Source: Mesorhizobium sp.
GTDB taxonomy: Bacteria > Pseudomonadota > Alphaproteobacteria > Rhizobiales > Rhizobiaceae
Direction: 5' to 3'
Length of the DNA: 64,000 nucleotides
Assembly: GCA_004020545.1 (NCBI GenBank)
Contig: SAQE01000027.1
Location: 1-64,000, forward strand
Positions 843 to 49,787 of the stretch are shown here, piece by piece. Position 1 is the stretch's first letter, and every line of letters begins with the position of its first letter. The position numbers and the translations under genes were made by a program. The notes beneath the pieces are model-generated. The model did not search any database, was not told where the DNA came from, and was given only the letters and a program-made list of their open reading frames with translations.

Positions 843-1901
843 ATGGGCTGCCAAATGGAGCGTAAAAAGATCAGCAAGGAGATGCTTGGCGATAGTCTGG
901 CGCTGCGCAAGCTGCGTGAGCACCTTGTCAAGGTGGCCAAGGCGAAGACTACGGTCATGTTGCGAGGTGAATCCGGAACCGGCAAGGAGCTGGTTGCCAA
1001 AGCCATTCACGAACTCTCGCCTCGCGCCAAGCAGCCCTTCATCAAGGTCAATTGCGCGGCGCTCACCGAGACGCTTCTGGAATCTGACTTGTTCGGTCAT
1101 GAGAAGGGTTCCTTCACCGACGCGATCAATTTGCGCAAGGGGCGCTTTGAGGCTGCCGACAAAGGCACATTGTTTCTGGACGAGATTGGCGAAATATCGG
1201 GCTCGTTCCAGGCTAAGCTGCTGCGTGTCCTGCAGGAGCAGGAGTTTGAGCGTGTCGGCAGCAACCACACCATTAAAGTCGATGTTCGCGTGATTGCCGC
1301 AACCAACAGGGACTTGGAAAAGGCAGTTCAACGCAAGGAGTTCCGGCAAGACCTCTATTACCGCATCAGCGTCGTCACTTTACGCGTGCCGGCATTGCGC
1401 GAAAGGCGAGGTGATATTCCGCTCTTGGCCGCTCAGTTTCTCAAGAATTTCAATACTGAGAATGATCACACGCTGACCTTCGCTCCCGAAGCGATTGAGG
1501 TGCTAATGAATTGCGAATTTCCAGGCAACATCCGAGAGCTCGAAAACTGCGTTCAACGGACGGCAGTTCTGGCGACGGGTCCATCAATCCTCAGAACTGA
1601 CTTTGCCTGTTGCGTGGGTGAGTGCTTGGCCGCGGCGCTGTGGAAGAACGGACCGCCGACGTCAGAGAACTCGACTACGATCGAGCCTTCCGCCGCCCGT
1701 GCCGCCCCGCCCGTCGGCGACGGGCAAGCGCCGATAGGCCCTGCCACGACTCGTGGTAGGGTGCCCGATGCCGATACGGTCATTGCCGCCATGGAAAAGT
1801 GTGGCTGGGTGCAGGCAAAGGCGGCGCGCCTGCTCGGTTTGACCCCGCGCCAGATCGGCTACGTGCTGAGAAAACACGGCATCGAGATCAAGCGTCTCTG
1901 A
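843..1901 (+). CDS. nifA: NifA-family sigma54 activator lacking the N-terminal GAF domain
   Basis: 352-residue enhancer-binding protein that would activate RpoN-dependent nif/fix promoters. It starts almost directly with the AAA+ domain: Walker A GESGTGKE at 42-49, Walker B GTLFLDEIGE at 108-117. The sigma54-contact loop reads GSFTDA (89-94) instead of GAFTGA. The C224-x11-C236-x19-C256-x4-C261 cysteine pattern of oxygen-sensitive rhizobial NifA is intact, and the Fis-type helix-turn-helix lies near 326-346 (GWVQAKAARLLGLTPRQ). Full NifA is over 500 residues; about 350-residue GAF-less forms are known in some rhizobia. An ATG at 855 is an alternative start. The site is unusual: the normal nifA position before nifB holds only a relic, so this may be the only nifA in the region. 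Confidence 0.9.
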   Translation: MGCQMERKKISKEMLGDSLALRKLREHLVKVAKAKTTVMLRGESGTGKELVAKAIHELSPRAKQPFIKVNCAALTETLLESDLFGHEKGSFTDAINLRKGRFEAADKGTLFLDEIGEISGSFQAKLLRVLQEQEFERVGSNHTIKVDVRVIAATNRDLEKAVQRKEFRQDLYYRISVVTLRVPALRERRGDIPLLAAQFLKNFNTENDHTLTFAPEAIEVLMNCEFPGNIRELENCVQRTAVLATGPSILRTDFACCVGECLAAALWKNGPPTSENSTTIEPSAARAAPPVGDGQAPIGPATTRGRVPDADTVIAAMEKCGWVQAKAARLLGLTPRQIGYVLRKHGIEIKRL

Positions 1902-9642: not shown

Positions 9643-10566
9643 ATGATGCGCAGAACGTTTCTCATGGCGGGCGTGTCCCTGTCTGCCGTAGCGGTCGGCA
9701 AGTCCTTAGCCGCGTCGGTATTCCTCGACTACACACAGGAGCAACTGGATACGGCGTATGACCAGTCATTCTGGGCGCCGCGGATGGCGGAACTGGAGGA
9801 AGGCGATGGCATCGCCAGCGCCGAGGTCCGGCGCGCGATGCCGCCGCGTCCGGCAAAATACGGTCCAGATGCCAGAGATCTCATCGATGTGTTCGCGCCT
9901 GGGATGCCAAGGCCGCCCCGGTCCTGGTCTTCATCCATGGCGGTGCCTGGACCCGAAACACTCGCGAGGATGCATCCTATCCGGCCCCGACCTTCGTTTC
10001 GCGCGGGGCGGCCTATGCCGCGCCTGACTTCGGCAGTGTGAAAACGCTGACGCTGCGACAGATGGTCGAGAATTGCAGGCGGGCGGTGGAGTGGACGATG
10101 AAGAATGCCGCCAGTTTCGGCGGCGACCCGAACCGGGTGTATGTGGCGGGTCATTCTTCCGGCGCGCATCTGGCGGCCTGCGTCCTCATCACCGACTGGA
10201 CGGAGCGCAGCCTACCGGCGGATGCCCTCAAGGGCGGCTTGCTGATGAGCGGCATGTATGATCTCTATCCGGTGATGCTTTCCTCGCGCAGCAGCTACCT
10301 GCATCTGACGGAGGGGGGAAGAGGCGGAATTCAGCCCGATGCGCCATCTCGACCGGATCACCTGCCCGATTGCCGTCGTGTCAGCCGACCAGGACAGTCC
10401 GGAGTTCAAGCGCCAGTCCGATGTGTTCGGTGAAGCGCTGCGCGGCATGGGGAGATTGGCCAGTCGAACGATAGCCTTCAACGCCAACCACTTCCAGGAA
10501 CCCGAGCATCTGAAAGACCCCGACACTGAAGTCAGCCAGGCGGCGTTCAAGCTGATGGGGATCTGA
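9643..10566 (+). pseudogene. Alpha/beta hydrolase (esterase/kynurenine formamidase-like) with two frameshifts
   Basis: Starts at 9643 with a signal-like segment (MMRRTFLMAGVSLSAVAVG). The first frame runs to about 9895; the oxyanion motif VLVFIHGGAWT and nucleophile elbow YVAGHSSGAH lie in a second frame; after a run of G residues near 10312-10318 the ending (EFSPMRHLDRITCPIAVV to KLMGI) is in a third. Restoring both shifts gives one ~305-residue secreted esterase of the BD-FAE/formamidase type. As written it is inactive. Confidence 0.8.
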
Positions 10567-15288: not shown

Positions 15289-15702
15289 TTAGAATTTCCT
15301 TCACCTCGAGACTATGCCGGCGTATCGCCTAGCCGACTTGTCGCGGCGTGAGGCGGAGAATTCGAGCCGCATTAGCCTGAACCCAGCCGGCCTTCTCCAT
15401 TGTGTCGATCAGCCGGTCACGCTCCGTCCGTCGCGGTCCCAGCGCCGGTCCGGCCGTATCGTTAGAATCGCAACCGGCTATCTCGTGTTCAGGGGCGCCG
15501 ATGCGCCTAACCGGCTTCGTGCTGGGCCGTGAGAGCTCGTCGATGCCATTGCCACGTTCCGAAAGATTGGTTCCTTCCAGAGGAGAACGCGCAAGTGTGG
15601 CTGTTCTTTACACGCAGTTCTCCAGCTCGCGGACGTTGCCGGGGAAATAGCATTGCGAGATCAGCTCAACTGCCGACGGCGTAAAGCCATGGTTCTCCAT
15701 AT
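15289..15702 (-). pseudogene. nifA: nifA relic (C-terminal third) between fixX and nifB
   Basis: Read on the minus strand: ENHGFTPSAVELISQCYFPG, then NVRELENCV followed directly by a TAA where NifA has CAA (Gln), then RTATLA, a decayed linker, and the HTH region ERDRLIDTMEKAGWVQANAA-RILRLTPRQ, with a frame slip before the end RRHSLEVKEIL. The GAF domain and most of the AAA+ domain are absent. This is the classical nifA site in fixABCX-nifA-nifB clusters, so the original nifA has been destroyed here. The break at 15702 is followed by IS66 sequence. Confidence 0.85.
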
Positions 15703-25261: not shown

Positions 25262-26494
25262 TCAGCTGTTGCGGTTCGGGCCGAGCAGAAATACTGTCAA
25301 GACAGCGAGGAACGTGGCAACCGCGCTGTAGAGAAAGACACTGGCAATGCCCGTGTGATCCACCAATAGGCCACCGAAAGTTGTGCCGGCTGCGATCGCC
25401 ACTTGGAAGGCTATGACCATCAGTACACCAGCGCTCTCGGCCTGTTTCGGAGCGGCGCGCAGCACCATCCAGGTCTGCAATCCGACCGGGACCGCGCCAA
25501 AAGCAAAGCCCCATACGGCAACTGCAATTGCCGAGGTCAAGGCCGATGCTCCCATAGTCAGGAGCGAGACAGCGGCTACGGCAATGAGCAGGGGCGGCAG
25601 GGCCGCGACTGCCTTGAGACTGTGTTTGGTGAGGAATGCGCCCGCTAAATTGCCGAAGACGCCGGCCGTGCCAGAAGCAAGGAACACGAGCGGGATCGAC
25701 TTCTTGTCGAGCGGAGGAACGCTCTCGAGAAAGTCGCGGATGTAGGCGAAGCTGGCAAAATGGCCGGAAGCGACCAATAGCACGACTAGGACCGCAACCT
25801 TCATCGTCGGATTCTTCGCGACATCCAGCGGACTGCGGAATCTGCGCACTTCGATCGGAGGCAGTGGCGGAATGGTTACGAGTTGCACGAGCAGCGCAAC
25901 GGCACTCACGATTGCGGCGACCTTGAACGAGGCTCGCCATCCCCAAATGTCACCGACATAAGCGCCGATTGGAGCCGCGCAGACGGAGGCGACAGAAACG
26001 CCGGTGAGGATGATCGACATGGCGCGCGGCATGAGGTGACTTGGAACCAGCCGCATTGCCAACGCTGCCGAAATTGACCAAAAACCACCGAGCGATATGC
26101 CGAGGACGACGCGTGCCGCCAGCAACACCGGCAGCGACCCCGCAACCTCCGCCAGAACGTTCGACAGGATCAGCAGCAGCGTCATCGCCCAGATGACGAC
26201 CCTGCGGTCCAGACGCTTTGTCACGATGGCCATTGTCGGTGCCGAGATCGCCGCGACGATTGCGGTCGCTGTTAGCGCCTGTCCAGCCGTGCCAGTGCTG
26301 ATACCGAGATCATGCGCGAGCGGTGTCAGAACGCTGGCGGGCAGAAACTCTGCCGTCACAAGCCCGAAGGTGCCGAAGGAAAGCGAAATGATCGCACCCC
26401 ATGCGGGGCCAGACCGTTGATAGGGACTTTCTGGGTCAAGCCGATCTCGGTCGAACAGAGCCGCGTCCACTAAATCTGTCGCCGATTCGGTCAT
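25262..26494 (-). CDS. MFS transporter, DHA1 drug/nucleoside efflux type
   Basis: 410 residues with about 12 hydrophobic segments. The loop 2-3 signature is present as TKRLDRRVVIWAMTLLLILS, and FGLVTAEFLPASVLTPLAHD near 40 is typical of the AraJ/NepI/arabinose-efflux branch. Substrate unknown. It converges on hmuS with a 250-base gap and is not obviously in an operon. Confidence 0.88.
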   Translation of the reverse strand: MTESATDLVDAALFDRDRLDPESPYQRSGPAWGAIISLSFGTFGLVTAEFLPASVLTPLAHDLGISTGTAGQALTATAIVAAISAPTMAIVTKRLDRRVVIWAMTLLLILSNVLAEVAGSLPVLLAARVVLGISLGGFWSISAALAMRLVPSHLMPRAMSIILTGVSVASVCAAPIGAYVGDIWGWRASFKVAAIVSAVALLVQLVTIPPLPPIEVRRFRSPLDVAKNPTMKVAVLVVLLVASGHFASFAYIRDFLESVPPLDKKSIPLVFLASGTAGVFGNLAGAFLTKHSLKAVAALPPLLIAVAAVSLLTMGASALTSAIAVAVWGFAFGAVPVGLQTWMVLRAAPKQAESAGVLMVIAFQVAIAAGTTFGGLLVDHTGIASVFLYSAVATFLAVLTVFLLGPNRNS

Positions 26495-27770
26495 GAATGA
26501 GTTCTCCAGCTAGGAGCTGTTGCAGCAGGGGTGGCTATATCGCCGGGGATCAAAGCCGCTAGACCTTCCGGCGGCGGCCAGTCGGCCTCAGTCGAGGCCT
26601 CGGCGCCCACGCATCCGAGGCCTCATCGGAGGGCCGACGGACACAACCGTCGACAATGCGGGAGAGTTCTCGGCGCGGTCGCATCGATCGCATCCGTCGA
26701 AGTGCGGCCTGTTCACTGCGAACCAAGCAAGCCGAACGCGGTGTCCTCGATCGAGGCCTTGATGGGGGGATGATCGACGATCTCTATATTGCTTTGAAGC
26801 AGGAAGTTCCGTCGCCATATGCGGTTATCCTGGCAGCCAGAATTGAGCGGTCGTCGCAAGCACCAAGGCGGTCGCAATGAGTGCAACGAGGCGGAAGTCT
26901 GATCGATGGCTGCGGTTCGATGGCCGCGCGATCGACAGAATTGAGGTGATGAGTTATCCCTTTTGAAGCCGTTGCTCCCAATTCTGGGATAAGGTAATTG
27001 CAGGCGGTCCCAGCAACGTCGGGCGGCCTTTTTGGTGATTGAATTCATGGGACGACACTCTCGGTCCGTGACGCGTCTGCGAATGACTGCGCAAGTACCG
27101 TGCCATCAACGACAAATCTGGCTCTGCTGAGCGGGTGGTGGAGGCACGAGCGTGGGCTATCCCAAGAGCTTGCCGCAAGGTTGTTCGAAGTTGAGGTGCC
27201 GGATAGGCCGCAAATATGTCGGGCGGCCTGGGGTTCGCCAACACGAAGATGCGCAAGTTCAAAAGGACGAGCTGAACCCTTGCCGATATCCGTCCGAGGC
27301 TGATCTGGAGAAGGTCAAGAACTGCGTCTTGAAGGCTTTCCGCCGCACCGGCAAATGCGAAGCCAAGGTGCTGGGCAAGATGGACAGGGCCACACAACCC
27401 CTCGACTGGACGCTCATTAACGGCATCGGTGTGGCTCTGGTAGCTGGCGAGAAAACGCCGTGCTGAAAGACGAAAGCTCGTGTGGCCGGCTCTGAAGGAG
27501 GGCCAATGAGGCAGGCGAGGAGAGGCTATAGCCCATTCTTGTAGACTGACCTTGTCCCACGGAGGCGGCTAACCACCCCGCCAGACATCATCGAGGGGAG
27601 CGCCACTAGGCTCACGAACAAGTGTTGGTCATTTCCACCTGGGTGACCTCGGCCAAGTCACCAAACCGCTTAGCGCAACCTTTCGAACTGGATGCTCCCC
27701 GGGCACATGATCGGCTAGCGATCCCACCAATTGAGTTGCTCCAAGTCGGTGTCTAGCTTTCTACATTCTG
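26495..27770. other. 1.3-kb stretch with no intact gene recognised
   Basis: Frames in this stretch are short and mutually overlapping. One minus-strand frame near 26880-26790 ends in a hydrophobic stretch (LVALIATALVLATTAQFWLP) that could be a membrane-protein remnant. A plus-strand frame at 27152-27466 (KDELNPCRYPSEADLEKVKN) has protein-like composition but matches nothing I know. Probably decayed genes. Confidence 0.4.
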
Positions 27771-27885
27771 TGTCCGACGCTGGACAAGAATGTTGCAATC
27801 CCGACCAGTAAGTCAGCACAGGCGCCACCTGTTGCCCAGCAAACGGCAAGGATTATCGAAAGACGAATTCGGCACGGAGCTTGCA
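27771..27885 (+). promoter_or_regulatory. Predicted NifA/sigma54 promoter of the P450 operon
   Basis: TGTCCGACGCTGGACA at 27771-27786 is an exact TGT-N10-ACA NifA site. CGGCACGGAGCTTGCA at 27870-27885 is a good -24/-12 element (GG-N10-GC, perfect TTGCA). The 84-base spacing agrees with nifH, fixA and nifB here. Transcription would start near 27896, almost at the first ATG of the P450 gene, implying a leaderless message or a later start codon. Confidence 0.65.
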
Positions 27886-27896
27886 CCAACGATTGC

Positions 27897-29162
27897 ATGC
27901 AAATGCCGACAGCATCTCATGAACGGTCTCTCGATTCTGGCGCGGTTAAATCGCGGCCGGTTCCAGATCATGTCCCGCCCGAAATGGTGAGGGACTTCAG
28001 CCTGTTTACGTCGCCCGGCATGTTGCCGACGGCCAACGGGGATCCGCATGCAGCGGTTGCTTGCGTTCATGCCGGGCCTCCGATCTTTTATTCAACCAGC
28101 AACACGCGCGACGGTCGGGGTACCTGGGTCATCACTCGCGCGAGCGACCAGCGCCGGGTGCTGCAGGACACCGAAACGTTTTCCAGCCATCGCAGCATCT
28201 TCGCCTCTGTGCTCGGCGAGAGCTGGCCGATGATCCCGCTTGAGCTCGATCCGCCATTCCACGGTGTTTTTCGCTCACTGCTCAATCCGCTGCTTTCGCC
28301 AAAGCGGGTAATGGCATTGGAGCCGGCTGTCCGGGAACGAGCGATCAAGCTGATCGACAGGATCGCCGCATCAGGCACGAGCTGCGACATCATGAAGGAT
28401 TTTGCAGTTCCGTTCGCGGTCAATATCTTCCTTCGCTTTATTGGGCTTTCGGACGACGGACTAGAAACATTTGTCGGCTGGGCTAGAGATCTGCTCCACG
28501 GCGATAAGGAGCAACGACCACCCGCAGCCCGGACGATCGTGGCCTTCATCGACGAACTTGCCACCGAGCGCCGCAAGGAGCCGGTCGATGATTTCATGAC
28601 CTTCATCGTGAAGGCAAAGGTCGAGGGCCGTCTGCTCAGTGACGAAGAAGTCCGTGGCATCGGCGTGCTTGTGTTCGTCGCGGGGCTCGACACGGTCTCA
28701 GCAGCCATATGCTTCGACTTGGCCCATCTCGCGCGCAACCCCAAAGATCAGGAATTGCTACGAAGCGAACCGGACCGGATTGCCGTCGCCGCGGAAGAAT
28801 TGCTGCGCGCCTATTCGACCATTCAGATGATCCGAGTGGCAACGAAGGATGTCGACTTCAAAGGCGCGCCGATCCGCAAGGGAGACTATGTTTCCTGTGC
28901 CACGATGATTGCCAATCGTGACCCGGCGGAATTCGAATACCCGAATGAGATCGATCTGGCGCGCGAGGACAACCGGCACGCTGCCTTTGGCTATGGTCCC
29001 CATCGTTGTCTTGGCTCACACCTTGCCCGGCGGGAGATTGTCATTGGCCTGGAGGAGTGGCTGGCGCGCATCCCAGCCTTTCGGATCAAGACAGGGACTG
29101 AACCCATCACCTTCGGCGGCCATGTGTTCGGGATCGAGAATCTGATCCTGGACTGGTCCTGA
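27897..29162 (+). CDS. Cytochrome P450, CYP127A-like
   Basis: Up to 421 residues. Heme-cysteine loop [18 protein letters not shown]-helix oxygen motif [12 protein letters not shown] and ExxR in AEELLRAYS are all intact, so it should be active. It resembles the CYP127A group known from rhizobial symbiotic DNA (for example in NGR234); subfamily naming is from memory. It would hydroxylate an unknown small molecule using the ferredoxin encoded 30 bases downstream. Start uncertain: ATGs at 27897 and 27903 lie at the predicted transcription start; the N-terminal [13 protein letters not shown] looks P450-like, favouring an early start over the ATG at 27984. Confidence 0.92.
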
Positions 29163-29191
29163 AGTTTCCGCCAACGACATTGGAGTTCGCT

Positions 29192-30040
29192 ATGCGTGTC
29201 ATCGTACACAAAGCCAGATGCCAGGGTCATGCGCGCTGCTTGGCGCGGGCGCCGAGAGTCTTCAAGCTTGATGACGACGGCTACATCTTGCCCGGTGATA
29301 TTGATGTTGCCGATGGGGAGCAACTGCTTGCCTCACAAGGGGTAAGAGCCTGCCCCGAACAAGCTCTGGAAGTTGACGAGCCCCCCGCTAACTCAATTGT
29401 AGAGAGAGACACACGCAAAGTGCAGACTGGCGTCGGGAAGGACAAAACAATCATACAATTCGCGACAGAACCTGTCGACCACGCGAAAATTACCGAACTG
29501 CGTGACCGAGAGGCGATCCGCAACTGCCTGTATCGGTACTGCCGCGGGATTGACCGCGCCGATGAGGCGGCGCTGCGTAGCGCATACTGGCCCGAAGCGT
29601 ATGACAGGCACGGTCCCTATTGCGGACCGGCAGAGGACTTCATCCAATTTGCTCTCGGTCTGCCGGGGCAGCGTAACATCCATCAAATCACGAACAGCCT
29701 GATCGACTTCATCAGTTCAGCAGAGGCCGCGGTCGAGAGCTATTTCACCGCGCTGCAACGCGGACCGGATACAGACCAAGAAATACGTCAGACGCTGCTT
29801 TGCGGCCGTTACTGCGATCTGTTTCAGAAGAGGCAGGACGAGTGGCGAATTGCGGAACGGACAGTCGTCTACGATTGGGTTGAGGAGCAAATCCCGCCAG
29901 CGATTCTTGAGGCAGATAGGTTCGGCCGGCGACAGCCGATTGGAGCACCACATCCAGACGATCCCATCTACCAGCTGCTCAAGCGTCACATCCCCACCGA
30001 CCAAGATGGCGTCGAGGGTCCCCAACTGGGAGCTGCATAA
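29192..30040 (+). CDS. Ferredoxin fused to a SnoaL/NTF2-like domain
   Basis: 282 residues from the ATG at 29192. Residues 1-70 are a P450-type [3Fe-4S] ferredoxin: CQGHARC, then ACPEQAL as the third ligand region. After a linker, residues ~100-260 form a SnoaL_4/NTF2-like domain ([54 protein letters not shown]), a fold used in polyketide cyclases, steroid isomerases and ring-hydroxylating dioxygenase beta subunits. The fusion joins the P450 redox partner to a likely substrate-acting domain. Confidence 0.85.
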
Positions 30041-30188
30041 GTGGGTAGAAATGGAGGATGAGCGCCTTGCGGGATTGAGATCTGTGTGGGGCCGCAACTG
30101 GCGGTCACTGCAACGATTTGGCTCGACCCTTCATTCCGCCCAAGGTCGATGGGCTGAGATCACAAGCGGTCATCGTGGAGAAGCTCTC

Positions 30189-31790
30189 GTGAAACTGGCA
30201 GCACGCACCGTAATCATCACAGGCGCCGCGGGCGGGATCGGCCGTGCCCTGGTCGATATCCTTGCCGCGGACGGAGACACTGTAGTTGCGGTGGACCTTC
30301 CGGGCAGTGGTGTGGTTGAACTGGCTCGGGATCTCGGGTCGCCGCACGTCGGTCTGGAGTGCGATGTGTCGCGAGAGAAGGACATGCTCTCACTTTTCGG
30401 CCAGGTCGAAGCACGGTTCGCGCAAATCGATGTCCTCATCAACAATGCGGCGGTTGGACCCACGATGGATAGGATCATCGACACCGCTGTCGATACCTTC
30501 CGACGCGGCGTGACAGTGAACCTTATTGGGCCATTCGTTATGGCCCGGGAAGCGGCGCGGCGCATGAGGCCGGGCGGTGCGATCGTCAATGTGGCTTCGA
30601 TGGCGGGCGTGGTCGGCAATCCCAGGCGCAACGCCTACGCAGCCTCGAAAGCTGGCGTGATCTCGTTGACAAAGTCCCTTGCGTGCGAGTGGGCTATGCG
30701 AGGAATCCGCGTCACGGCGGTGGCGCCGGGCTCCGTCCGCACCCCAATGGTCACAGAACTGGCACGCGCTGGCAAAATGGACCTCGCGGCGATACGCCGC
30801 CGCGTGCCGATGGGGCGCTTGGCTCGCCCCGACGAGATCGCCAGGGTCGTGCGTTTTCTGAGCAGCACGCAGGCGCGCTACATCACCGGCTCGGTGCTGG
30901 CAGTCGACGGAGGCTGGATGTCATTCAACCAGCCGGGGGATGCTCACCCGCCGGTGGATAGTGCGCTCCAAGCCGAGCTCTCCTGTCCGGCCGAATGCAC
31001 AGATGCGCGAATCGTGCTCGTCACCGGTGGCGCAAAAAGCATTGGCGCGGCCGTCGCTCGCCGCTTTGCCGCGAACGGCGACACCGTCGTGATTGCTGAT
31101 AAAGATGGCACTGCAGCGGCAGAGCTGGCTACATCGCTCCCCGGCAAGCATCTGGCGAAATCGCTGGACGTGGCCGTCGAGAGCGATGTGGTGTCGATGT
31201 TCGAAGAGCTGAGGCGACGCTTCGGGTATATCGATGTTCTGGTCAATAGTGCTGATACCGCCGACAGGATTGTGCCTGCGATCGAGCAACTGTCGAAACA
31301 GCTCGAACACGTCCTGGATGTCAACCTTACCGGCGCCTTCACCTGCGCGCGCGAAGCGATCAAGGCTATGCGCCCGGGCGGCGTGATCCTCAATCTCGGG
31401 TCGATCGACAGCTTTCTGCCGTTCGCGCCGCGCCATGCCTACGGCGCCTCCAAGGCGGGGATGGATATGCTGACCCGTTGCATGGCGGCCGAACTCGGCC
31501 CGGTCGGAATTCGGACAGCCACCGTCGCTCCTGGCCACATCCGCACGCCCGCACTTGCTCAGTTGGCCAAAGCCGGCCGCATCGACCTGGCAGCAATCGG
31601 ACGACGCATCCCCATGGGCAGGATGGGACGGCCAGAAGACGTCGCAGATGCATCGTTCTTCCTTGCTTCGTCTGACGCCTCATACATCAACGGCTCGATC
31701 CTCTACGTGGACGGCGGCTGGACCTCGTTCGGTGATGCGGGAAACGCCAGCGAACTCTATGACGAATGTTTTGCGGAGGCCGCAGGTTAA
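30189..31790 (+). CDS. Tandem short-chain dehydrogenase/reductase (two SDR domains)
   Basis: 533 residues from the GTG at 30189, chosen because GGAGAAG precedes it; an ATG further up overlaps the ferredoxin gene. Domain 1 (5-245): VIITGAAGGIGRAL, LINNAAVG, VASMAG, YAASKAG. Domain 2 (275-520): VLVTGGAKSIGAAV, LVNSADTAD, LGSIDSF, YGASKAG. Both keep TGxxxGxG-type NAD(P) binding and the YxxxK catalytic pair. A similar duplicated SDR, y4lA, is known next to a P450 in NGR234. Likely oxidises or reduces the P450 product. Confidence 0.9.
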   Translation: MKLAARTVIITGAAGGIGRALVDILAADGDTVVAVDLPGSGVVELARDLGSPHVGLECDVSREKDMLSLFGQVEARFAQIDVLINNAAVGPTMDRIIDTAVDTFRRGVTVNLIGPFVMAREAARRMRPGGAIVNVASMAGVVGNPRRNAYAASKAGVISLTKSLACEWAMRGIRVTAVAPGSVRTPMVTELARAGKMDLAAIRRRVPMGRLARPDEIARVVRFLSSTQARYITGSVLAVDGGWMSFNQPGDAHPPVDSALQAELSCPAECTDARIVLVTGGAKSIGAAVARRFAANGDTVVIADKDGTAAAELATSLPGKHLAKSLDVAVESDVVSMFEELRRRFGYIDVLVNSADTADRIVPAIEQLSKQLEHVLDVNLTGAFTCAREAIKAMRPGGVILNLGSIDSFLPFAPRHAYGASKAGMDMLTRCMAAELGPVGIRTATVAPGHIRTPALAQLAKAGRIDLAAIGRRIPMGRMGRPEDVADASFFLASSDASYINGSILYVDGGWTSFGDAGNASELYDECFAEAAG

Positions 31791-31928
31791 TTGCCAGGCA
31801 TTCGCAGGGCGACCGGCCGAGCATTATGAAGCCTCGGCTCCACGACGCACCCGAGGTGCTTGAGATCCAAGCATGCGCATGCCGAGCACATTCCCGGTCG
31901 GCTGACGTGTCTATAACGAGGAGAAATC

Positions 31929-32981
31929 ATGGAATTTGCCACTTTCATTCTGGCCGCCCAGCGTGGCTATCACCAATCCTCAGAAAGCGTCATCCGCAAC
32001 TCCATCGAACAGGCCGTCGCTTCGGAGCAGGCTGGGTTCAACACCGCGTGGTTTGCTGAGCACCACTTCAACAATTACAGCCTCATACCATCCCCGCTGA
32101 TGATGGTGGCGCACTGCGCCGGCTTGACAAGCACGATTCGCCTGGGCACTGCCGTCTGCGTGCTGCCGCTTTACCAACCGCAGCGCCTGCTGTCCGAGAT
32201 CGGCTTCGCCGACATCGTTGCGAACGGCCGTCTCGAGCTCGGCGTAGGCTTGGGATACCAGCAGTTCGAGTTCGAACGGTTCGGCGTGGACATCGATGAG
32301 GCGCCGGCCGTCTTTTCGGAATACCTGGACATCATTCTCAAGGGCCTCAACCAAAACGTCTTCGAACACGACGGCCAGTATGAGAAGATCCCCCCAACAG
32401 CGATTTCGGTCCGCACAGTCCAGCAGCCGACGCCGCCTATCTGGATCGCTGGCGGAGCCGCACGGATGGCTCGGGCCTACCGCGAGGGGCACAATTTTTT
32501 TGTCACAGCCTTCCACGACGGCTTAGAGACTTTGACCACACTGCGTGAATCAGTCGAGAGGGCGGCGGCATCCGAGGAAAAGAACGTCACCGACGTCAAG
32601 ATATCGCTGCTGCGCTGCTGCTATGCCAGCCACGACGAGTTGGAGATCAACAGCTATCTCGACAATGCCCGCTTCCAGCGCCGGCTTTCTGAAGCCCTGC
32701 ATCAGCGCCGCCAACAGAGCCACGATGGCTACCTGCTGCAGGAGACACCGACCCAGCAGGATCTGTCCTTCGAGACCATGCGCAAAAATTTGCCGATTGG
32801 CAGCGTAAATCGCGTGATTGATCGCCTGCTGGAAGAGATCGATATCTTGAAACCGGACCAGATCGCAGTTCAGACTCAATTGGGCGACTTCGACCAAAAG
32901 ACGATGCTGCGCCAGATCGAGCTCTGGGGCGACAAGATCATCCCTGCGGTCAACAAGGCGCTTTGTCATGCCGGAAGCTGA
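31929..32981 (+). CDS. Luciferase-like (LLM) flavin-dependent monooxygenase
   Basis: 350 residues, starting after AACGAGGAGAAATC. Bacterial luciferase fold: NTAWFAEHHFNNYSL near 38-52, RLGTAVCVLPLYQPQRL, GRLELGVGLGYQQFEFERFG, and PPIWIAGGAARMARAYREGH. The family uses FMNH2 and O2 from a separate reductase. Last catalytic gene of the P450 operon, 138 bases after the SDR and 14 before nifQ. Confidence 0.88.
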   Translation: MEFATFILAAQRGYHQSSESVIRNSIEQAVASEQAGFNTAWFAEHHFNNYSLIPSPLMMVAHCAGLTSTIRLGTAVCVLPLYQPQRLLSEIGFADIVANGRLELGVGLGYQQFEFERFGVDIDEAPAVFSEYLDIILKGLNQNVFEHDGQYEKIPPTAISVRTVQQPTPPIWIAGGAARMARAYREGHNFFVTAFHDGLETLTTLRESVERAAASEEKNVTDVKISLLRCCYASHDELEINSYLDNARFQRRLSEALHQRRQQSHDGYLLQETPTQQDLSFETMRKNLPIGSVNRVIDRLLEEIDILKPDQIAVQTQLGDFDQKTMLRQIELWGDKIIPAVNKALCHAGS

Positions 32982-32995
32982 AGCCGGCCGTTACG

Positions 32996-33595
32996 ATGAT
33001 GGCTGCCTATCCACGCGCGCAATGGCGTGGGTCCGAGCTAGGGAGGAGCTTCGATCAGCATGTGCTGCCCTGCGTGCTTTCGCGTTCGCTTGAGGAGGTC
33101 CAGGCGGGCGAGGTGTTGGCGACGGAGGGGACAGGCCTTTCGTCTGTCGAATTGCGTGATGTCTTGGCCGCAACTTTCCCGTCTACCTCCAGCAGCGTAT
33201 TCGCTTTGGAGGAGTTGAGCGAGCCCGAGCCGGAACTGGAAGAGGAGCTGCTGCGCCGGCTGCTGCTAGCGCATGCTGCGCCGGGCGACCCGGCGAGCGC
33301 CCGCTTGGCCAAGATCATCGCCCGGCGTGCGATGCGCACGGACCATCTTTGGCGGGATCTTGGCCTCTCAAATCGCGCTGAGCTCAGCCGCCTGCTTGCC
33401 AGACATTTTCCCGCGCTGGCGGCAGGCAACACAGAAAACATGAAATGGAAAAAGTACTTTTACCGCAAGCTGTGTGAGGCCGAAGGCTTTTCGTCATGCA
33501 CTGCACCCAGTTGTCGGGAATGCCATGACTTCGAAAGCTGCTTCGGCCCGGAGGAAGTTGAGAGTCGCCTCTCGCCGACCAGGAATGCCGGTTAG
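32996..33595 (+). CDS. nifQ: NifQ, molybdenum delivery protein
   Basis: 199 residues from the ATG at 32996; a TTG at 32963 is a longer alternative overlapping the monooxygenase gene. The NifQ signature is complete: MKWKKYFYRKLCEAEGF, then C-x4-C-x2-C-x5-C in CTAPSCRECHDFESCFG. NifQ carries a Mo-Fe-S cluster that donates Mo for FeMo-co. It appears cotranscribed with the P450 operon, and its TAG overlaps the convergent rpoN stop. Confidence 0.93.
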   Translation: MMAAYPRAQWRGSELGRSFDQHVLPCVLSRSLEEVQAGEVLATEGTGLSSVELRDVLAATFPSTSSSVFALEELSEPEPELEEELLRRLLLAHAAPGDPASARLAKIIARRAMRTDHLWRDLGLSNRAELSRLLARHFPALAAGNTENMKWKKYFYRKLCEAEGFSSCTAPSCRECHDFESCFGPEEVESRLSPTRNAG

Positions 33596-35025
33596 TCACT
33601 TCGCTTGATCGCAGCTGCGGACAACCGCTTATCACGGCGCCGTAGTATGGAGGAAGGGATGTTCATCGCCTCGCGATATTTGGTGACGGTACGGCGAGCG
33701 ACATTGATGCCGGTCTGCTTGAGCTGAGCAACGATGTCTTCGTCGGAAAGTACCTTGTCGAGCGATTCTTCGGCGATGATTGCCTTGATCCGATGGCGGA
33801 CAGATTTGGCGGAGTGCGCGTCGCCGCCCTCGCAGGATGCGATTGTCGCTGTGAAAAAATACTTCAGCTCGAACACCCCGCGCGGAGTTAACATGTACCT
33901 GTTCGAAGCCACCCGGCTTACCGTCGACTGGTGCATTTTGATCCCGTCAGCGACATTTTTGAGACAGAGAGGCCGCAGATGGGCGACGCCGTGTGTAAAA
34001 AAGGCATCCTGCTGGCGCACGATTTCGGTCGCAACCTTAAGGATCGTCTTAGCGCGCTGCTCGAGACAGCTGATCAGCCAGTTCCCTTTTTCCTGGCAAT
34101 GGTCGAGAAACGCTTTGCCTTCCGGATTTTGATTGGTCAGCTGCGAGATTTCGGCGACATAGGTGTGGTTGATCAACACTTTGGGCAGCGTGGCCGGATC
34201 AAGCTCCACCCGCCATCCACCTTCGGACTTGGGCATTACCCAGACGTCCGGTACGATGGTTTCCGGCGTCCCGGACTGGAACCGGTCTCCAGGCTTGGGA
34301 TCGAGCGCGCGGATTTCGTTCCTCATGTCGAGGAGATCCTCCTCGTCGACTCCGCAACGCTGCTTCAATCCCTGAAAATCCCCCCGTGCAAGCATCTCGA
34401 GATTGGCGACCAAAGCTGCCATAGCCGGGTCGAACCGGTCTTGCTGGCGCAGCTGAATCTCCAGGCATTCGCTGAGAGTTCGCGCAAAAATCCCCGGCGG
34501 ATCAAATTGCTGCAAGATTCCGATGACCCGTTCCACATCAGCTTGCCGAACGTTTAACCTCCCGGCCAGATCGAAAAGGTTTACCTGAAGATAGCCAGTG
34601 TCCTCCAGATGGGCGGCGAGCTGTCCGGCAATCAGCCGCTCCTGCGGGGTGAACGGGGTGAGGGCGACCTGGCGGGCGACATGGTCGTGCAATGTTTCGG
34701 TGTGGGCGGTAAACTCCTCGACGGCAGGTCGATCGTTGCCGCTACTGCGTTGCGACTTCCATTGCCCGCGCCCGCCAGACGGCCCGCCAATGGGCGATTC
34801 GCCGATTTCGCTTCTGCTTTGACTGCTCCGCTGATCCACCCCTGACAGCGGCGAAACGTCGTCAAACGGGTCAGGCTTCAAAACGGGGTTCTTCTCGAGT
34901 GCCTGCTCCACGAGCTGATGGAGTTCAGTATGCGTCAATCGCAGCAAGCGAATAGCTTCAATGGCTTGAGGCGATAAGACCATACGTTGCTTCTGGCGTT
35001 GAAGCAGGCTTGCTGAGAGATGCAT
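33592..35025 (-). CDS. rpoN2: RpoN, RNA polymerase sigma54 (symbiotic copy)
   Basis: 477 residues. N-terminal activator region: LQRQKQRMVLSPQAIEAIRLLRLTH; acidic region II near 50-100; C-terminal RpoN box ARRTVTKYRE. It directs RNA polymerase to -24/-12 promoters and needs NifA to open them. It follows prxS by 69 bases, an arrangement known as prxS-rpoN2 in Rhizobium etli, where it is expressed in bacteroids. Its stop overlaps nifQ's stop by four bases on the opposite strand. Confidence 0.96.
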   Translation of the reverse strand: MHLSASLLQRQKQRMVLSPQAIEAIRLLRLTHTELHQLVEQALEKNPVLKPDPFDDVSPLSGVDQRSSQSRSEIGESPIGGPSGGRGQWKSQRSSGNDRPAVEEFTAHTETLHDHVARQVALTPFTPQERLIAGQLAAHLEDTGYLQVNLFDLAGRLNVRQADVERVIGILQQFDPPGIFARTLSECLEIQLRQQDRFDPAMAALVANLEMLARGDFQGLKQRCGVDEEDLLDMRNEIRALDPKPGDRFQSGTPETIVPDVWVMPKSEGGWRVELDPATLPKVLINHTYVAEISQLTNQNPEGKAFLDHCQEKGNWLISCLEQRAKTILKVATEIVRQQDAFFTHGVAHLRPLCLKNVADGIKMHQSTVSRVASNRYMLTPRGVFELKYFFTATIASCEGGDAHSAKSVRHRIKAIIAEESLDKVLSDEDIVAQLKQTGINVARRTVTKYREAMNIPSSILRRRDKRLSAAAIKRSD

Positions 35026-36811: not shown

Positions 36812-38008
36812 ATGTGCGATGCAAAACTGAAGACCGTGCTTTCGCTCTTCTCGCCGGTGGCCAGCAAATTAGATGCTCTCTCGTCCAACGGACCAGCGAC
36901 GGATGCAAATTACGTTAAGCTAAATACGAACGAGAACCCGTTTCCGTTGCCGAAGAGCGTAATGCAAAGTGCAATTGCTGCGATCGAACACCATTATCTT
37001 TATCCGGAAGACGACAATCTCAGCTTAAGGGCAGCTGCCTCCGACGCTTACGGATTTTCCAAAGATCAGGTGATTGCCGGCAACGGTTCGTCGGAACTGC
37101 TCGGACTCATCTACAGAGCTTTCCTCGCCCCAGGAGATACAGTGGCGATGCTGTCGCCCGGATTTTCGTTCAACCGTAAACTTGCCATGTTACAGGGTGC
37201 CGAGTTTCTCGAAATCGCATCGAGCGAAGCTCATCCCCTGCCGATAGAAAAACTTCTGTCCGGCCCCGCAAAAGACGCGAAGTTCATTCTGTTGGCTAAT
37301 CCGAACAATCCGACCGGAACATTCGTGCCGGTGGCCGAAATCGAACGCCTTGTGGAGCAAGCAGATCGCTTGATCGTCTTGGATGAGGCCTACGTTGACT
37401 TCGCACCCGACCATGCCCTGCGCCTCGTCAATAGACATCCGAATCTTTTGATCTTGAGGACTTTTTCAAAGAGCTATGCTGCCGCTGGCGTGCGAGTCGG
37501 CTTCGGTTTCGGTCACCCAGAAATCATTGGCAGGCTGCGCAACATCCAGAATGTCTTCAACATGAACGTGATCGGGCAGGCGGTCGGGAAAAGCATTCTT
37601 GCGCATCGCCACGCCTACGAAGAGAACCACAGGCACATCAAGCATGAACGACAGCGAGTGACCCTGGCGCTGTTGCAACTTGGCTTTTCCGTAACACCCT
37701 CCCACGCAAACTTTTTGCTGGCCCGTGTGCCGGCGGGACAGGAGGGCTCATGCTGGCAAGCCGCGTTGAAAGAGCAGAAGATCCTCATCGCCAGCTTTCC
37801 TGACATAGATTTGAAGAACTGCATTCGCGTCAGCATTGGTAGCACAGAGCAGATGGACAAATTCCTTGCTGCCGCCAAACACGTCTGTATGAACTTTAAG
37901 AGGAATCGCGGTGTGCGCAAGCATGAAGTCAATTCACATTGCATTGGAAATGTATTAAGTAATAAGTGTCGATGTGTTATAAGTTATGATGTTTCCAATA
38001 GTGGATAA
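36812..38008 (+). CDS. HisC-like class I aminotransferase
   Basis: 398 residues, PLP enzyme. VKLNTNENPFPLP near 35, LANPNNPTG near 165, the aldimine aspartate in VLDEAYVDF and lysine in RTFSKSYAAAGVRVGFG are intact. Best family is histidinol-phosphate aminotransferase, but no other his genes are near, so it may transaminate another amino acid in a specialised pathway. The last ~30 residues (GVRKHEVNSHCIG...) are beyond the family end and lie in AT-richer DNA. GGAGAAG precedes the ATG. The LLM oxidoreductase starts 27 bases downstream. Confidence 0.85.
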   Translation: MCDAKLKTVLSLFSPVASKLDALSSNGPATDANYVKLNTNENPFPLPKSVMQSAIAAIEHHYLYPEDDNLSLRAAASDAYGFSKDQVIAGNGSSELLGLIYRAFLAPGDTVAMLSPGFSFNRKLAMLQGAEFLEIASSEAHPLPIEKLLSGPAKDAKFILLANPNNPTGTFVPVAEIERLVEQADRLIVLDEAYVDFAPDHALRLVNRHPNLLILRTFSKSYAAAGVRVGFGFGHPEIIGRLRNIQNVFNMNVIGQAVGKSILAHRHAYEENHRHIKHERQRVTLALLQLGFSVTPSHANFLLARVPAGQEGSCWQAALKEQKILIASFPDIDLKNCIRVSIGSTEQMDKFLAAAKHVCMNFKRNRGVRKHEVNSHCIGNVLSNKCRCVISYDVSNSG

Positions 38009-38035: not shown

Positions 38036-39070
38036 TTGACGAAAATTTTCGCTTCGGGCCTAACCTTCGGCATCTTCGATCATCTGGACGAAAACGGCGA
38101 TGACATCGCCCAACAATATGCAGATCGGCTGAGCCTAGCAGAAGCGTGCGATGGCTATGGCTTTTATGCGTATCATCTCGCAGAGCACCACTGTACGCCA
38201 CATGGCAGAGGTCCATCACCGAATTTGTTCTTAGCGAGCGTCGCCCAGCGAACCCGCAGTCTTCGTGTTGGTCCCATGGTAATGCTACTTGCGCTCTATC
38301 ATCCGCTGCGTGCCTTCGAGGAGATCTGCATGCTTGATCAGTTGAGCGGCGGCAGGCTTGAACTCGGCATAGGGCGCGGCTCTGCTCCGACTGAATTGGG
38401 ATACTTCGGGGTTGCTGTAGAAGCAGCACCAGAACAGTACACGGAGGCCAGCGAGATTCTCATCAATGCGATGAAAGGCGGGACGCTTTCTTATGAGGGC
38501 CGCCACTTTGAGTTGAAAGACGTTCCGCTGACGTTGAGACCTCACCAATATCCCCAGCCGCCGACATGGATCGCCACCAATCGACCCGAGCCGGCTAGCT
38601 GGGCCGCCGCGAATGGGGCAAACATCGCCTGCGTCGGACCTTCCACTTCTGTTCGCAGCGTTACCGACGCGTTCCGCGCCGCCCGAATTCACGATGCTGA
38701 CATTGGCCACCAAGCGCCATTTCTTGGATTGCTCCGAATGGTGGTGATAGGGCGTTCTGAAACAGATGCGTATTTGCTCGCAGCACCTGCCTATGAACGA
38801 TGGCTCAAGAGCTTCAAATTTCTATACGAACTAAATGCCATTCCCACTCCACCAAACTTGCCTTTGAACTTCGATGCAGCAATTGAAAGTGAATTGTGCG
38901 TCGTGGGAACGGCAGCTTCTGTCCGAAAAGCTCTCCTTGATCAGCTGGAAGAGGCAGGTGCTAATTATCTTCTGTGTCAACTGGCATTTGGGGATTTGCC
39001 GCTGGATGCCTCGCTATACACCGCATCGACCATTCGATCCGAAATCATGGCTCGAGTTGCCGCATCGTGA
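38036..39070 (+). CDS. Second luciferase-like (LLM) flavin-dependent oxidoreductase
   Basis: 344 residues with a TTG start preceded by TTTGGAGAAT. Family landmarks: GYGFYAYHLAEHHCTPHG, LRVGPMVMLLALYHPLRAFE, GGRLELGIGRGSAPTELGYFG. Clearly related in fold to the P450-operon monooxygenase but not a recent duplicate. Forms a two-gene unit with the HisC-like aminotransferase; oxidation of an amino- or keto-acid product is a reasonable inference. Confidence 0.88.
   Translation: MTKIFASGLTFGIFDHLDENGDDIAQQYADRLSLAEACDGYGFYAYHLAEHHCTPHGRGPSPNLFLASVAQRTRSLRVGPMVMLLALYHPLRAFEEICMLDQLSGGRLELGIGRGSAPTELGYFGVAVEAAPEQYTEASEILINAMKGGTLSYEGRHFELKDVPLTLRPHQYPQPPTWIATNRPEPASWAAANGANIACVGPSTSVRSVTDAFRAARIHDADIGHQAPFLGLLRMVVIGRSETDAYLLAAPAYERWLKSFKFLYELNAIPTPPNLPLNFDAAIESELCVVGTAASVRKALLDQLEEAGANYLLCQLAFGDLPLDASLYTASTIRSEIMARVAAS

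Positions 39071-48872: not shown

Positions 48873-49787
<915 letters not shown>

Follow-up and report, generated by a model that had tools for sequence, protein, structure and literature searches.

A nifQ-linked cytochrome P450 operon of rhizobia, probably a shortened degradation pathway under NifA-type control

What does a set of oxidative enzymes do among the nitrogen fixation genes of a rhizobium? The question is raised by a 64,000-nucleotide stretch of Mesorhizobium sp. DNA (assembly GCA_004020545.1, contig SAQE01000027.1, positions 1 to 64,000), hereafter called the window, which is a symbiosis region within a 6.99-Mb genome and contains nifH at 48906 and nifA at 849. Here, genes for a cytochrome P450, a ferredoxin fused to an NTF2-like protein, a tandem short-chain dehydrogenase/reductase (SDR) and a luciferase-like monooxygenase (LLM) of the flavin mononucleotide (FMN) type precede nifQ. 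The five same-strand open reading frames (ORFs) described in a first-pass annotation of the window are present, and so are the domains it named: P450, Fer4_15 and SnoaL_4 in a single ORF, two SDR domains, Bac_luciferase and NifQ. Since the LLM and nifQ ORFs overlap, the cotranscription with nifQ that it had proposed is likely. We consider it probable that the operon descends from a degradation pathway of which bacteroids retain a few oxidative steps for tailoring, controlled by NifA and sigma-54 and with the P450 and ferredoxin placed in front.

We compared 133 loci, consisting of the window, 12 plasmid loci, 40 loci from Rhizobiaceae genomes and 80 from named species, a set that includes some same-strain pairs as well as 24 fetched loci that we term chromosomal-type; several of the latter are on contigs of 3.9-8.4 Mb and a chromosomal location was assumed for the others. 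All but one of them (23/24) are from genomes without a nifH match, the exception being L039, which shares genome G064 with a symbiotic operon (L030). The chromosomal-type loci carry the three core genes of the operon in the same order and at about 55-85% identity, in a cluster that runs NTF2, flavin reductase, tandem SDR, p98 (a 98-amino-acid protein, without a Pfam hit in the L041 copy) and LLM. In L045 this cluster is preceded by genes for ATP-binding cassette (ABC) permeases, an IclR regulator, a second LLM and SDR, a substrate-binding protein, an SMP-30 lactonase and an ADP-forming coenzyme A (CoA) ligase; L041, L053 and L039 resemble it in gene order, while L055, L060 and L062 additionally carry an AMP ligase, acyl-CoA dehydrogenases and an enoyl-CoA hydratase. 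Genes in the GC-rich chromosomal-type loci were chosen with a codon-score picker, and protein families were tested on L041, L045 and L055. Unlike the operon, the chromosomal-type cluster has no match to the P450 or the ferredoxin and no NifA-type promoter before NTF2 (0/24). No name for it was found in the literature.

In the trees, the intact symbiotic NTF2, SDR and LLM sequences formed one clade each (34, 27 and 31 tips with support of 0.84, 0.81 and 0.84, respectively) containing no chromosomal-type members, and chromosomal-type sequences were sisters of the symbiotic clade for NTF2 and LLM. Traces of the two genes that separate the core genes in the chromosomal-type cluster were present in the corresponding gaps of the symbiotic loci. 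At an E value of 0.001 within that small set, similarity to the flavin reductase was detected in the NTF2-SDR gap of 9/80 symbiotic loci (7/48 distinct gaps) and similarity to p98 in the SDR-LLM gap of 25/80 (21/48 distinct gaps), and the reverse placement was never seen in the 80 loci. Each of the four flavin-reductase remnants that we inspected was broken into different frames, p98 was still open in L028 and its twin L124 (M. albiziae), and the gaps in the window are only 151 and 141 bp long. Because of the trees and the remnants, we infer that the NTF2-SDR-LLM core came from a chromosomal-type CoA-dependent degradation cluster by a single entry into symbiosis replicons. The reductase remnants in the matching gap suggest that the symbiotic operon no longer has an FMN-reductase component of its own. 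No intact flavin reductase was seen beside symbiotic LLM copies in the gaps and loci searched, and the matches in plasmid records queried with the flavin reductase were all under 60%. In Arthrobacter, Sulfitobacter, Pukyongiella and Rhodococcus, relatives of p98 have flavin reductases as neighbours, together with SDR, LLM or CoA-type catabolic genes, and these clusters are mostly of the CoA-type catabolic kind. The fusion of p98 to a flavin reductase in L064 (9854-10660) and L164 (7965-8765), with a Sulfitobacter fusion also noted, suggests that p98 is a reductase-associated domain.

The parentage also bears on a different explanation, in which the operon is still a breakdown route that removes or detoxifies a host flavonoid, terpenoid or phenolic in the nodule, the lost steps being encoded elsewhere. 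The parent-type cluster is catabolic, both copies are kept in one genome (L030 and L039), and three flavin-reductase relatives (31-39% identity) occur in the genome of the window. Yet a second NTF2 copy was not found in that genome at an E value of 0.001, and none of 28 symbiotic loci, the window among them, matched the substrate-binding protein, IclR regulator, lactonase or CoA ligase, a search that did not extend to the permeases and beta-oxidation genes. We regard a surviving breakdown route as rather unlikely.

Decay is also seen in the tandem SDR, which scored 718.7 against PRK06484 with a cut-off of 713. In the window, only half 1 carries the full set of TGxxxGxG, NNAG and YxxxK motifs: in half 2 the middle Gly of the first and the second Asn of the second are Ser, with Tyr and Lys retained. 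The catalytic residues of half 1 were retained in all 50 distinct symbiotic sequences, one Asn variant aside, whereas in half 2 the second Asn was present in none, Lys in 23, middle Gly in 42, and Tyr and Ser in 45 each. In chromosomal-type sequences, Gly, Ser, Tyr and Lys of half 2 were present in 17/17 and the second Asn in 12/17. The ratio of nonsynonymous to synonymous substitutions (dN/dS) was 0.307 for half 2 versus 0.198 for half 1 among symbiotic copies, compared with 0.252 versus 0.206 among chromosomal-type copies. We read this as half 2 losing catalysis since the move into symbionts, and the window copy may represent an early stage of that decay. The first-pass description of a two-step SDR is thus doubtful, since the second active site is decaying (Lys in 23/50 symbiotic against 17/17 chromosomal-type sequences). 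Its statement that all catalytic motifs are intact holds for the P450, the ferredoxin cysteines, the NTF2 Tyr/Asp/His and SDR half 1, but fails for SDR half 2.

The operon as such is not new. The NTF2 protein of the window is 98-100% identical to those of 28 of the 80 loci from named species (L065-L092), including M. muleiense, M. mediterraneum and M. wenxiniae, a group that we take to be chickpea symbionts. The operon of the window is accordingly the chickpea-type variant, within Mesorhizobium, of one previously reported for NGR234 and for M. loti (msi332-331). The NGR234 counterparts had been given as y4l genes, which presumably belong to the gibberellin operon. They are instead located after nifQ-dctA on pNGR234a, as in the published nifQdctA1y4vGHIJ operon, which is named in the title of a paper cited by PMC3538637. 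There, orthologous P450, NTF2, tandem SDR and LLM genes are contiguous, in the same order, linked to nifQ and served by a NifA-type promoter with two upstream activator sequences (UAS). The NGR234 operon differs in that nifQ and dctA come first, the promoter precedes nifQ and a ferredoxin gene was not found, whereas in the window nifQ is the last gene and NTF2 has a fused ferredoxin part. M. loti R7A has a P450-ferredoxin pair (msi332-msi331) with a NifA/RpoN promoter that is NifA2-dependent in bacteroids, but a nifH-like promoter TTGGCACGACTTTTGAA before a nifQ fragment and an intact nifQ elsewhere; Lotus japonicus strain 131-3-5, related to R7A, carries all five genes. In the open-licence literature we found neither a paper on the y4vG-y4vJ operon nor a described product.

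Control by NifA was first considered from the sequence upstream of the P450 gene. The exact TGT-N10-ACA motif previously noted at 27771-27786 is there, and a second one at 27750-27765 had been missed. Alone, neither element is informative: TGT-N10-ACA was found 9 times in the window (7.39 expected) and the -24/-12 pattern at two mismatches 35 times (34.89 expected). What is informative is the co-occurrence of the two and its repetition in other lineages. Defined as a -24/-12-like site with a UAS 60-130 bp upstream, the combination occurred at 5 places in the window with at most 2 mismatches; 200 first-order Markov sequences had 0.12 on average and never more than 2. When 3 mismatches were allowed, the window still contained 5, the Markov mean rose to 0.84 and five were reached in 1/200. 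By position, the other four places are before nifH, nifB, prxS (a minus-strand peroxiredoxin gene beyond rpoN) and a fixA-like electron transfer flavoprotein (ETF)-beta gene; nifH and nifB were above their NCBIfam cut-offs, while the best model for the fixA-like gene was below its own. The distance from UAS to site is 83 and 104 bp at the P450, 90 at nifH, 71 at both nifB and the fixA-like gene, and 129 at prxS, so the claim of the same spacing as at nifH, fixA and nifB holds loosely at most. As the promoter adjoins the first ATG of the P450 gene, and ends 17 bp ahead of the second (27903), the mRNA would be nearly leaderless.

Across lineages, the strict form of the UAS and -24/-12 pair was present in 50/75 distinct P450 upstream regions (up to 1.5 kb), compared with 217/4000 random 1.5-kb segments from the same loci and 0/4000 Markov versions. 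The remaining 25 comprised 14 with a site and no strict UAS and 11 with neither element; five of them belong to loci with the NGR234 arrangement, in which the promoter is instead before nifQ (6/6). TGT-N10-ACA at the position of the second UAS was conserved in 10/10 distinct chickpea-type upstream regions, and a UAS at 81-86 bp occurred in 11 other distinct ones. Several kinds of promoter serve the operons, namely CGGCACGCAACTTGCT with its close variants, TGGCACGACTTTTGAA in the M. loti group (the promoter given for msi332 in PMC3538637), and nifH-like TGGCA..TTGAA variants in L014, L015, L031 and L050. L034, an NTF2-SDR pair without P450 from a nifH-positive genome (NTF2 at 3595, SDR at 4282), has a nifH-like -24/-12 site with a UAS 387 bp before the NTF2 match. 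The strict promoter was absent from the 2.5 kb before NTF2 in L008, L009, L010 and L049, which lack the P450 or have a fragment of it, and from the stretch examined in five Microvirga loci. Being above chance and recurring between lineages, the combination supports the NifA/sigma-54-type promoter proposed before the operon.

Published data on orthologues agree with this. An msi332::lacZ fusion in M. loti R7A bacteroids gave 446.6 units in the wild type, 273.5 in a nifA1 mutant and 14.6 in a nifA2 mutant (PMC3538637). As this was a cis-merodiploid fusion in which the P450 was not inactivated (PMC3538637), the "fully effective" score of the strain is uninformative on P450 function. In nodules of an M. 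huakuii 7653R abiEi mutant, transcripts fell by a log2 of 10.19 for the P450, 8.59 each for NTF2, SDR and LLM, and 7.12 for NifQ, alongside FixA, NifZ and NifT (PMC8436566); we assign these consecutively tagged genes to L016 from their order on pMHb, as the tags of the two differ. The prediction of NifA-dependent nodule transcription is thereby borne out for orthologues, and from its promoter we infer that NifA and sigma-54 likewise activate the window operon in bacteroids.

Some observations concern the regulator and the surroundings of the promoter. The nifA match in the window (849-1898, plus strand) spans only profile positions 187-534, the N-terminal domain being unmatched. Another piece of nifA, interrupted by two stops (15293-15691, minus strand), adjoins the nifB promoter. 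A -24/-12 site close to the consensus but lacking a strict UAS (27090-27105, minus strand) lies upstream of a gene for a NepI-like exporter of the major facilitator superfamily (MFS) at 25262-26494, which could export the product of the operon.

The enzymes themselves suggest chemistry on a ring compound. The nearest solved structure to the P450 is P450cam (4.8e-65); its I-helix acid/alcohol pair (Asp/Thr), ExxR and heme Cys are conserved, with the catalytic residues present in 68-69 of 69 distinct sequences. The P450 is a putative CYP127, a name based in part on PMC8197338, which gives CYP127A3v1 in M. japonicum and lists testosterone hydroxylation for CYP127A3. The three cysteines of the ferredoxin, whose best PDB relative is a CYP143-linked ferredoxin, were invariant (50/50). 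Ferredoxin and NTF2 were in frame without a stop in 38 of the 93 loci having both parts (17 distinct sequences), and the usual NTF2 start codon reads GTC in 30 of these 38 copies; the fusion is therefore not an assembly error of one genome. NTF2 is similar to LinA and scytalone dehydratase and has an Asp/His dyad with a Tyr five residues before the Asp, as in SnoaL_4 lyases of this type, which have Tyr or Lys there. These residues, presumably the catalytic ones of the LinA/scytalone dehydratase type, were retained in 67/68 (Y34) and 68/68 (D39 and H82) distinct symbiotic and in 24/24 chromosomal-type sequences. The LLM is nearest to luciferase alpha chains. Elsewhere in the window, an aminotransferase gene (36812-38005, plus strand) is followed by a second luciferase-like monooxygenase ORF with a TTG start (38036-39067, plus strand); the pair had no match of at least 40% identity among the 88 non-chickpea loci listed in that comparison.

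Two known systems offer themselves for comparison. On the CAM plasmid of Pseudomonas putida, the camphor pathway leads from P450cam to an alcohol dehydrogenase and a diketocamphane monooxygenase, and hydroxylation by a P450, dehydrogenation and oxygenation by an FMN-type LLM are shared with the operon. The camphor pathway differs in its class of ferredoxin, its camphor-contact residues are not matched and the operon LLM is closer to luciferase alpha than to diketocamphane monooxygenase; neither a lactonase nor a CoA ligase was found alongside the operon. The rhizobial gibberellin operon contains several P450s, a ferredoxin, an SDR and diterpene cyclases. The P450, ferredoxin and SDR are common to both, and a NifA-type promoter precedes the diterpenoid genes msi071-064 of M. 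loti. Identity with the gibberellin operon was rejected, in line with the first-pass annotation, which had proposed a distinct tailoring-type enzyme set: the operon has one P450 and the four P450 matches in the genome are on four contigs (cyclases were not searched for).

In the proposed mechanism, the uptake, regulator, lactonase and CoA-ligase genes that accompany the parent-type core would be missing from the symbiotic copies; flavin reductase and p98 would have decayed in symbionts, some lineages still showing remnants, and SDR half 2 would be losing its active site. Served by the ferredoxin, whether fused or neighbouring, the P450 would hydroxylate a hydrophobic ring compound and SDR half 1 would oxidise the alcohol. 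The NTF2 protein, a putative Tyr/Asp/His lyase or isomerase of the LinA/scytalone-dehydratase type, would eliminate or isomerise, and the LLM would insert oxygen using FMNH2 from another reductase. Such a pathway would end in an oxidised compound that is formed or altered in the nodule; the sequence of reactions is a proposal. The enzyme families, together with the lactonase, CoA-ligase and some beta-oxidation genes of the parent-type cluster, suggest a route from alcohol to ketone to oxygen-inserted ring product that resembles camphor breakdown and stops short of degradation. Because no lactonase, CoA ligase or dedicated uptake lies alongside, the operon pathway would not degrade its product. 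The substrate may be camphor-, terpenoid- or steroid-like; none of the analyses identified a substrate class, including the terpenoid, steroid-like or aromatic molecule suggested earlier. It is possible, if doubtful, that truncation and NifA control turned the degradation pathway into a signal- or defence-type biosynthesis, with bacteroids making and perhaps exporting an oxidised (lactone-like) derivative of a ring compound from the host or the bacterium.

We also examined how widely the operon is conserved. All five genes were intact together in 69/133 loci, or 39/103 without the 30 near-identical chickpea-type copies, so that neighbourhood comparison confirms their joint conservation. P450 fragments stand before an intact NTF2 gene in R. 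leguminosarum TA1 and S. meliloti pHRB800, and the ferredoxin was not found in six loci of the NGR234 group. In several loci of Mesorhizobium and Microvirga, the fetched stretch yielded neither SDR nor LLM; in L120 and L122 the contig ends first. In L105, L106, L109 and L112 (M. ventifaucium, escarrei, prunaredense and metallidurans), whose fetched stretches have no SDR or LLM match, nifQ lies about 200 bp past NTF2 (NTF2 at 10001, nifQ at about 10750). Among 394 Rhizobiaceae genomes, the P450 was present in 17, the NTF2 gene in 46 and nifH, at a threshold of 1e-100, in 23. All 17 P450 carriers had the NTF2 gene and 15 had nifH (Fisher 1.3e-19), the two without a nifH match (G029 and G194) being draft assemblies; the P450 is thus found in about two thirds (15/23) of the nifH-positive genomes. 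A class-wide sample gave P450 matches at 1e-75 in 4/385 genomes, the nearest outside the genome of the window at 42% identity, and no non-symbiotic source of the P450 was found in the 394 Rhizobiaceae or 385 class-wide genomes.

To quantify selection, we calculated dN/dS for pairs of intact symbiotic copies; the pairs are not independent and broken copies were left out. The median values were 0.165 for the P450, 0.239 for the ferredoxin, 0.191 for NTF2, 0.264 for the SDR and 0.131 for the LLM, compared with 0.217 for nifQ and 0.259 for rpoN. By these ratios, the P450 and LLM are under strong purifying selection, and with P450, LLM and NTF2 all below nifQ and rpoN, the earlier impression that selection acts on the set is upheld. 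The operon might alternatively be an oxygen or electron sink, in which the oxygenases use O2 and help to keep the bacteroid microoxic, the organic product being incidental. Two oxygenases do lie within one operon, and a passage of PMC4999443 places a P450 (cpx, of a family unstated there) that is NifA-controlled in several Rhizobiales under microoxic adaptation. An oxygen sink would leave unexplained the retained NTF2 and SDR genes and the specific conservation of active sites, and we consider it highly improbable.

Several observations weigh against the preferred reading of a shortened tailoring pathway. SDR half 2, the whole SDR, LLM, P450 or ferredoxin is broken or was not found in many symbionts, and 8/23 nifH-positive genomes are without the P450. 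The parent-type cluster varies too, with NTF2, SDR and LLM all intact by our criterion in only 10/24 chromosomal-type loci. The symbiotic clades have moderate support (0.81-0.84), and midpoint rooting was used for the SDR tree. The positions aligned with those that we take to contact camphor in P450cam differ in the operon P450, and the similarity of the LLM to 3,6-diketocamphane monooxygenase, a camphor-type Baeyer-Villiger enzyme of type II, a class with a separate FMN reductase and ketone substrates, is weak and partial (4.4e-7 over 90 residues). Structure predictions from shallow alignments were of low confidence, with a mean predicted local distance difference test (pLDDT) score of 41.7 for the LLM and 44.7 for the NTF2 domain. 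The mutants reported so far point to little need for the operon. In NGR234, polar mutants reportedly covered y4vGHIJ. A nifQ mutation was without effect on fixation in NGR234, according to the passage of PMC3538637 that cites Fumeaux 2011. This last result, the repeated gene loss and dead copies, and the decay of SDR half 2 would also fit a relic that travels with the nif genes, expressed through its promoter but decaying and without present function. Such a relic is improbable given the dN/dS of the intact P450 and LLM copies, the retained catalytic residues of the P450 and the several different NifA-type promoters that serve the operon.

Table 1. Coordinates of the operon, its predicted control elements and its neighbours in the window
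Feature	Position	Strand	Remarks
MFS exporter (NepI-like), divergent neighbour	25262..26494	-	Near operon in 21 of the 88 non-chickpea loci with any match; putative system member
Second NifA-type UAS, TGT-N10-ACA, TGTCTAGCTTTCTACA	27750..27765	+	104 bp upstream of -24/-12 site
Main NifA-type UAS, TGT-N10-ACA, TGTCCGACGCTGGACA	27771..27786	+	83 bp upstream of -24/-12 site
-24/-12 sigma-54-type promoter, CGGCACGGAGCTTGCA	27870..27885	+	Resembles CGGCACGCAACTTGCT, common in many other lineages
Cytochrome P450	27897..29162	+	Pfam p450; ATG 27897 or 27903
Ferredoxin-NTF2 fusion ORF	29192..30040	+	ATG 29192 behind GGAG; longest ORF starts TTG 29180
Ferredoxin part of fusion	29192..29401	+	Fer4_15; C-x5-C ... 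CP, single-cluster 3Fe-4S/4Fe-4S type
NTF2/SnoaL_4 part of fusion	29477..30037	+	SnoaL_4; GTC at usual start-codon position
Tandem SDR, 533 aa	30189..31790	+	GTG start 30189 behind GGAG; NF005067/PRK06484 above cut-off
SDR half 1	30189..30938	+	Active-site motifs intact
SDR half 2	31002..31733	+	Gly to Ser, Asn to Ser; Tyr and Lys retained in window
Luciferase-like FMN-type monooxygenase (LLM)	31929..32981	+	Bac_luciferase 7.1e-61; GAGGAG ahead of ATG
nifQ	32963..33595	+	PF04891; TTG 32963 overlaps LLM end, alternative ATG 32996
rpoN (sigma-54), convergent neighbour	33592..35025	-	Frequently linked in symbiotic loci

What is new here is the probable catabolic origin of the core, the remnants, the decaying SDR half and the ferredoxin-NTF2 fusion, none of which we found described in the open-licence papers searched. 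The P450 is widespread in nifH carriers, has NifA-type promoters and is under tighter constraint than nifQ, yet no product was found described. The probable catabolic parentage of the core and the remnants provide a handle on the chemistry, since the substrate of the parent cluster would indicate what bacteroids act on, and genome G064, with L030 and L039, is a good strain for a functional comparison of both cluster types. Should the doubtful conversion to a signal- or defence-type biosynthesis have taken place, many rhizobia would possess, in addition to the gibberellin operon, another small-molecule pathway specific to the nodule.

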